A DNA stretch of 64,000 nt from Pseudohongiella sp. (GTDB taxonomy: Bacteria > Pseudomonadota > Gammaproteobacteria > Pseudomonadales > Pseudohongiellaceae). A model generated the notes under the pieces. It ran no database searches. It worked only from the letters and a program-made list of their open reading frames with translations, and had not been told where the DNA came from. The stretch covers positions 186,001 to 250,000 of the forward strand of contig JAUSCD010000012.1 in the NCBI GenBank assembly GCA_030651695.1. The letters run 5' to 3'. The position numbers were made by a program, and so were the translations under genes. Positions 25,840-26,400 of this stretch are shown piece after piece; positions within the stretch are counted from its first letter, which is position 1; the number at the start of each line of letters is the position of its first letter.

Positions 25840-26400
25840 ATGAAAACTATTGATGGTTTCAGCCTGGCAACCGCCGCCGCTGCCCTGCTTATGTCCGGCA
25901 GCAGCCTGGCAGACTTGTCGGCCGACCAGACCAATCCGGATGATCCGGTGAAAATCAGCGTTTGCCAGAATGCTCACGGCGCCGGTCAAAGTGCCTGCAA
26001 AGGATTTGGCAACGAAGCCGGAGCCGGCGCAAACAGCTGCAGTGGTGTGGGTTTTGTTGCCATCACCACCGGCAACGGTGCCTTCTCTTCAGCCATGTGC
26101 CAGGTAGTTGGGGGCACGGAAGCAGCCAGTCTGACAGCTGCAGCAGAATTTACTCTGAGCGATGAAGCAGTCAGCGTTGCTTACTGCAATGATGTATTTA
26201 CCTGTGCCGGCCTCAGCGCCTGCAAAGGTAACAACAATGCTGCCGGAGCAGGTAAAAACAGCTGCCACGGCATAGGTTTTATCGGCATCTATTCTGGCAG
26301 CGCCGAGTTGTCAGCATCTCTGTGTGCAAAACTGGGGGGCACCGTGTTGTCAGCCGGGGAGTTTGCCTCACTGGATGCGTCTGTCACTACAGAGCATTGA
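25840..26400 (+). CDS. bufA: bufferin-like Cys-rich secreted RiPP precursor with two core modules (BufA-like)
   Basis: Signal peptide MKTIDGFSLATAAAALLMSGSSLA; repeated QSACKGFGNEAGAGANSCSGVGFV...MCQVVGG / LSACKGNNNAAGAGKNSCHGIGFI...LCAKLGG; followed directly by DUF692 and DUF2063 genes. Confidence 0.78.
   Translation: MKTIDGFSLATAAAALLMSGSSLADLSADQTNPDDPVKISVCQNAHGAGQSACKGFGNEAGAGANSCSGVGFVAITTGNGAFSSAMCQVVGGTEAASLTAAAEFTLSDEAVSVAYCNDVFTCAGLSACKGNNNAAGAGKNSCHGIGFIGIYSGSAELSASLCAKLGGTVLSAGEFASLDASVTTEH
25987..26340 (+). repeat. two diverged in-gene copies of the Cys core (25987-26115 and 26212-26340), each 43 aa, offset 75 aa
   Basis: Protein-level alignment of residues 50-92 with 125-167 without gaps; shared SACKG..N.AGAG.NSC.G.GF...C...GG. 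Confidence 0.85.

Follow-up and report, generated by a model that had tools for sequence, protein, structure and literature searches.

A two-module Buf2-like bufferin precursor of Pseudohongiella and the unequal conservation of its two modules

A short gene preceding an MNIO enzyme gene in the window (the whole 64 kb stretch of Pseudohongiella DNA that was analysed) encodes a cysteine-containing protein in which one segment occurs twice, and this raises the question of whether the two copies serve one enzyme as two equivalent sites or have taken on different roles. Based on family alignments, profile searches, structure predictions and estimates of selection, the protein is read here as a two-domain Buf2-like bufferin that would be MNIO-modified, exported and copper-binding, in which module 2 carries the working loop and module 1 has been demoted to a frame (probability about 0.75). 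A literature search found no paper naming bufferins in Pseudohongiella.

The precursor, its internal duplication and its operon

The open reading frame (positions 25840..26400; like the other window features described here, on the + strand) encodes a 186-residue protein, which is assigned as a two-module Buf2-like bufferin precursor from matches of the BufA2 model NF050166 to both halves and from its relatives in same-genus and same-family genomes. Residues 1-24 (MKTIDGFSLATAAAALLMSGSSLA; 25840..25911) have a basic start, a hydrophobic core with a mean Kyte-Doolittle value of 1.97 and small end residues, and are likely a Sec signal peptide, of which the cleavage site is a guess. Module 1 spans residues 37-92 (25948..26115) and retains Cys 1, 3, 5 and 6 of the Buf2 pattern as C42, C53, C67 and C87, with Cys 2 and Cys 4 lost; its loop, residues 44-70 (25969..26049), holds C53, which is followed by Lys, and C67. 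After a linker of residues 93-110 (26116..26169), module 2 spans residues 111-167 (26170..26340) with Cys 1, 2, 3, 5 and 6 as C116, C122, C128, C142 and C162, and its loop, residues 118-145 (26191..26274), holds C122, C128, again followed by Lys, and C142. The window protein thus has four Cys in module 1 and five in module 2, both modules lack Cys 4, and one Cys-Lys site is left per module, C53 and C128, each in a CKG sequence. The C-terminal stretch at 26341-26397 has 13 extra residues compared with all relatives, which terminate in LSSL or similar.

The first-pass annotation had proposed an internal duplication of an MNIO precursor, and this was borne out at the proposed interval, 25987-26340. 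Residues 50-92 (25987-26115) and 125-167 (26212-26340) align ungapped at a 75-residue offset with 22 of 43 positions identical and a BLOSUM62 score of 125, compared with a best score of 56 when one copy was shuffled 100,000 times and a peak of 60 when the whole mature protein was shuffled 2,000 times. The suspicion that the signal might reflect low-complexity Gly and Ala residues was dispelled: with Gly/Ala columns excluded, 11 of 23 positions remain identical and the score of 67 is above the highest reached in 100,000 shuffles (58); the non-Cys columns of the two copies, taken alone, likewise outscore all shuffles, so that a low-complexity artefact is ruled out as the source of the duplication signal. 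The three Cys pairs said to be in register (53/128, 67/142 and 87/162) are so, and the nucleotide copies have diverged as described, with 80 of 129 positions identical. The upstream Cys, which had been taken to differ between the copies, do so in part: an alignment with a one-residue gap brings C42 and C116 together as Cys 1, and only C122 (Cys 2) is without a partner in module 1, the position being lost there across Pseudohongiella. Because of the equivalence at Cys 1, the module proper begins about 13 residues before 25987, at about 25948.

The MNIO gene (26449..27312) matches PF05114 with an E-value of 4e-103 and the bufferin maturase model NF050167 MNIO_BufB with 351 bits (cut-off 310), and it carries an ERDD motif that is present in 28/28 MNIO enzymes of the family and in 27/30 canonical Buf2 neighbours. 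An Asp following the catalytic Asp, at the position of FonB-Phe250, marks MNIOs acting on Cys-Lys substrates (PMC13097082), and the second Asp of the ERDD motif places the window enzyme in this Cys-Lys group. The start of the third gene (27309..28121) overlaps the MNIO stop; its product, a BufC-like DUF2063/NGO1945_C partner, matches PF09836 (43.5 bits, cut-off 27.2) and PF22106 (30.2 bits, cut-off 27) and scores 35 bits against NF050145 HvfC, under the cut-off of 142. No DoxX gene adjoins the operon, the next gene being OsmC-like and on the opposite strand; DoxX is common in bufferin clusters without being universal, and DoxX genes lie elsewhere in the genome. The same genome holds this one MNIO gene, with no second MNIO found, and no Buf1 (DUF2282) precursor anywhere.

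The precursor itself has no Pfam match, DUF2282 included. NF050166 matches it in two stretches with 45.5 bits in total, below the curated cut-off of 60, which no same-family genome tested exceeds, and in a DNA-level search each half matches this model separately (27.3 and 26.6 bits). With four plus five Cys, the window protein departs from the 6 or 12 conserved Cys of Buf2 precursors, the remaining positions being Buf2 ones. From these matches the precursor is filed as a Buf2-like divergent homologue rather than as a BufA2 equivalog. A sequence search against solved structures gave no match, and tblastn gave no viral relatives.

In AlphaFold2 models built on the family alignment, each module is predicted as a strand bearing Cys 1, a disordered loop, a second strand, a helix bearing Cys 6 and a third strand. 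The model of the window protein, in which the module 1 loop is unstructured, is of low confidence (mean pLDDT 52.7); that of a relative lacking the module 1 loop reaches a mean of 64.0, with frame blocks mostly at 69-88, and the predicted frame is unchanged by removal of the loop. In this loopless relative, C46/C69 and C98/C144 are placed in the first strand and the helix. In Buf1, the first and last Cys are paired and the central Cys are modified (PMC12452194), and by analogy a Cys 1-Cys 6 disulfide is probable in each module. A PDB fold search with both models returned nothing significant; the top match of the loopless relative, the copper chaperone Atx1 (E 1.0, probability 0.12), was discounted.

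Asymmetric decay of module 1 across Pseudohongiellaceae

The precursor is present in 14/14 other Pseudohongiella genomes searched and in at least five from other genera of the family, and of 35 genus and family genomes, 20 carry the precursor, and these 20 and no others carry the MNIO. The order ubiE-SCP2-precursor-MNIO-DUF2063 is constant in all records long enough to show it, except for a one-module record from Thiotrichaceae (L104:3952-4720), in which two tandem one-module Buf2 precursor genes stand ahead of one MNIO gene; these tandem genes are the separate-gene counterpart of the two-module precursor. Two metagenome-assembled records titled 'Klebsiella pneumoniae' and 'Rhodoferax sp.' (L082 and L096) hold the Pseudohongiellaceae operon in the family neighbourhood, and their titles look wrong.

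Among the 22 distinct rows of the family alignment, Cys 1 and Cys 6 are kept in 22/22 in both modules, and the intervening Cys fare differently in the two. In module 1, the row counts for Cys 2, 3, 4 and 5 are 7, 16, 0 and 13, against 22, 22, 19 and 22 in module 2. Module 1 accordingly ranges from two to five Cys and module 2 from five to six, apart from G009 (L017), in which part of the module 2 loop is also gone and four remain. Cys 4 of module 1 has been lost everywhere, Cys 2 throughout Pseudohongiella and Cys 5 in some species. This module holds five Cys in seven species of one genus, four in most Pseudohongiella including the window, and three in some. The remaining copies have two Cys because they lack about 22 residues between Cys 1 and the second strand. 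Since the module 1 loop matches that of the other module and of canonical domains, these loopless states are losses rather than gains. On a quick tree of the MNIO enzymes, they arise at least three times at places separated by well-supported branches, namely in L102, in a subclade of a second genus, and in Pseudohongiella L017 and L099-L101 as one event or two. The signal peptide of the loopless precursor at L102:3992-4462 terminates in the lipobox-like sequence LTGC, and this protein may be a lipoprotein. In module 2, Cys 4 was replaced by Gly three separate times, at window residue 136 (26246-26250 region), in L098 and in L078; Cys 4 seems to be the most dispensable Cys of the family, its module 2 losses matching that in module 1.

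No frameshift or stop was found in any copy examined. By simple Nei-Gojobori proportions, with synonymous sites near saturation, the scaffolds of the modules are under purifying selection (pN/pS 0.06-0.21), which persists in the module 1 frame of loopless lineages (0.21). The module 1 loop gives 0.15-0.16 where it is retained, the module 2 loop is the slowest-evolving part everywhere (0.05-0.08) and the linker the fastest (0.21-0.53).

Two-module precursors as such are known: 90% of Buf2 precursors have 6 Cys and the rest 12, the latter representing duplicated domains (Antoine et al. 2025, PMC12452194), and intact precursors with 6+6 Cys were found here in other genera (L069, L070, L114-L117 and L120). 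The canonical Buf2 spacing of the class is C1-x5-C2-x5-C3-x6-C4-x5-C5-(K)G-x-G-(F/W)...C6. Module 2 of the family has six Cys in 19 of 22 rows, the window being among the three without Cys 4, with spacings of x5, x5, x7 and x5; in both modules, one residue is added between C3 and C4 and about seven between C5 and C6. On a single-module tree, all family modules group together against the one-module domains and both domains of the other 12-Cys precursors (support 100/99). A duplication shared with other 12-Cys Buf2, in which module 1 would group with first domains and module 2 with second domains, was rejected by AU tests (p 0.0006 and 0.005; 47 columns). On this short alignment, the duplication is probably private to the family Pseudohongiellaceae and older than its genera.

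Several early proposals can be revisited in this light. The duplication had been called old or under selection, and both hold, with the two copies present throughout the family and the scaffolds constrained; the cores had been described as related to, yet diverged from, known bufferins, in agreement with the 45.5 bits scored against a cut-off of 60. The two-module architecture is not new, the 12-Cys Buf2 having been described already; the new part is the asymmetry and the natural deletion series, and the main texts of the literature yielded no described family with unequal modules and recurrent loop loss. The early refuting case of conservation limited to one module is half true, as module 1 conserves its frame and not its target loop. 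Similarly, of the idea that one enzyme modifies two equivalent sites, there remains one Cys-Lys site per module in the window protein; their equivalence is not what selection maintains, module 2 staying nearly complete while the module 1 loop decays.

A candidate regulatory box upstream of the operon

A candidate response-regulator box, the direct repeat ATTCAG-N5-GTTAAG (25753..25769), lies 87 bp before the ATG of the precursor. Its pattern, RTTMAG-N5-RTTMAG, is spaced like the sites of the OmpR family, among them the PhoP box, in which five bases separate the repeated hexamers (PMC3335776), and occurs once in the 64 kb window, where 0.08 occurrences are expected. In the window and 13 other Pseudohongiella records it stands 82-140 bp ahead of the precursor, and the 28 loci hold it at no other place; no consensus match to a sigma-70 promoter was found ahead of the precursor. 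Genome-wide, seven Pseudohongiella genomes have 9-14 sites each versus 1-5 for a reversed control pattern; in other genera of the family the excess is slight or absent. Across six genomes, the genes recurring downstream of the box encode DsbA (6), a small c-type cytochrome (6), two small envelope proteins (5 each), CopC (4), a DUF6152 protein (3) and a YnbE-like lipoprotein (3). These sites suggest that the box links the bufferin operon with copC, dsbA, cytochrome and envelope genes in a copper/envelope regulon, and how an operon that lacks a regulator of its own may be activated. In several genomes the box also precedes a response-regulator operon; in the window's own genome this operon (L152:248-1878) encodes a glycine-zipper protein and a PepSY protein together with an OmpR-type response regulator, which is a candidate for controlling the bufferin operon, and positions 1-396 of L152 hold an incomplete reading frame that resembles, by eye, a histidine kinase.

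Proposed mechanism, alternatives and comparison with known bufferins

In the proposed mechanism, the precursor would be made with a Sec signal peptide, and in the cytoplasm the MNIO enzyme and its DUF2063 partner would oxidize some Cys to 5-thiooxazoles, most likely the Cys-Lys ones (C53 and C128), possibly along with further loop Cys; even for the Buf2 of Caulobacter, the chemical nature of the modifications is still to be assigned (PMC12452194). The modified protein would then be exported and bind excess copper in the periplasm, and a role of the operon in copper and disulfide handling would agree with the candidate regulon, which includes copC-copD and dsbA. Each module may form a strand-strand-helix-strand frame displaying a disordered Cys loop between its first two strands, to which Cys 1 in the first strand and Cys 6 in the helix would belong as a probable disulfide, Cys 2-5 belonging to the loop. 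One module would have been duplicated before Pseudohongiellaceae diversified; thereafter module 2 would have kept its working loop, and in module 1 the loss of Cys 4 would have been followed by that of Cys 2 or 5 and finally by that of the loop.

Were the two modules equal, with both loops modified and metal capacity doubled by the duplication, the Cys-Lys site and C67 retained in module 1 of the window and the constraint on its loop wherever it survives would be readily explained, and equality is the likely state of the intact 12-Cys Buf2 of other genera. Equal modules would be expected to decay alike; instead, module 1 has lost Cys 4 in every relative and its loop at least three times while always keeping its frame, and module 2 has not followed, which makes this reading rather unlikely for the present family. 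The persistence of the frame beyond its loop, under purifying selection, could also mean that module 1 serves the MNIO-DUF2063 pair as a recognition or chaperone domain, or packs on module 2 as a partner, and in RiPPs it is usually the sequence N-terminal to the core that the partner protein reads. Canonical one-module Buf2 precursors nevertheless manage without such a module, and preliminary Buf1 data make the signal peptide part of the recognition sequence (PMC12452194), so that such a role is rather unlikely as well. That module 1 has no role and is decaying as the whole system drifts to loss is improbable: the step-wise Cys losses, the several independent deletions and the partial loss of the module 2 loop in G009 could be read in this way, but the copies examined are free of frameshifts and stops, the frame residues with Cys 1 and Cys 6 are invariant, the MNIO always accompanies the precursor, and purifying selection on the frame already disfavours drift.

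Module 2 as the working module and module 1 as a retained frame is the preferred reading. Carried further, and tentatively, Buf2 may at large be a disulfide-stapled frame with an interchangeable Cys loop, of which module 1 of Pseudohongiellaceae could have become a loopless, metal-free version serving module 2 in folding, delivery or enzyme recognition. If the division into frame and loop is true, the family would provide a natural deletion series separating two parts of a bufferin, of interest since the literature consulted has not settled which Cys of Buf2 carry modifications and which stabilize the fold. The excision of Cys 2-5 from one module in at least three independent lineages, with Cys 1, Cys 6 and the frame kept, allows roles to be assigned, in a directly testable way, across bufferins in general, and the loopless precursors are compact natural constructs.

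Of the known systems, 12-Cys Buf2 such as WP_077285100 of Cognaticolwellia aestuarii (PMC12452194) are closest, sharing with the window precursor two tandem Buf2 domains per chain, adjoining MNIO and DUF2063 genes, the same Cys order, near-identical spacing and, probably, a signal peptide. In contrast to these, the precursors of the Pseudohongiella family have 8 to 11 Cys (9 in the window and 6 in one genome), unequal modules, one Cys-Lys per module where 12-Cys Buf2 have up to four, a separate duplication on the module tree, and the extra C3-C4 and C5-C6 residues. Each window module alone resembles the one-module Buf2 described by NF050166 (Cu_RiPP_BufA2) as a Buf2-like domain, whereas the window precursor has two such modules per chain and remains under the cut-off of that model. 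The Asp after the catalytic Asp of the window MNIO and the CKG sequences at C53 and C128 are shared with the Cys-Lys group captophorins (PMC13097082), from which the window precursor differs in that most of its other loop Cys no longer precede Lys. Buf1 differs by its DUF2282 domain, which has no match in the window precursor; it is exported, as is predicted for the window precursor, and the pairing of its first and last Cys is the model for that of Cys 1 and Cys 6 proposed here.
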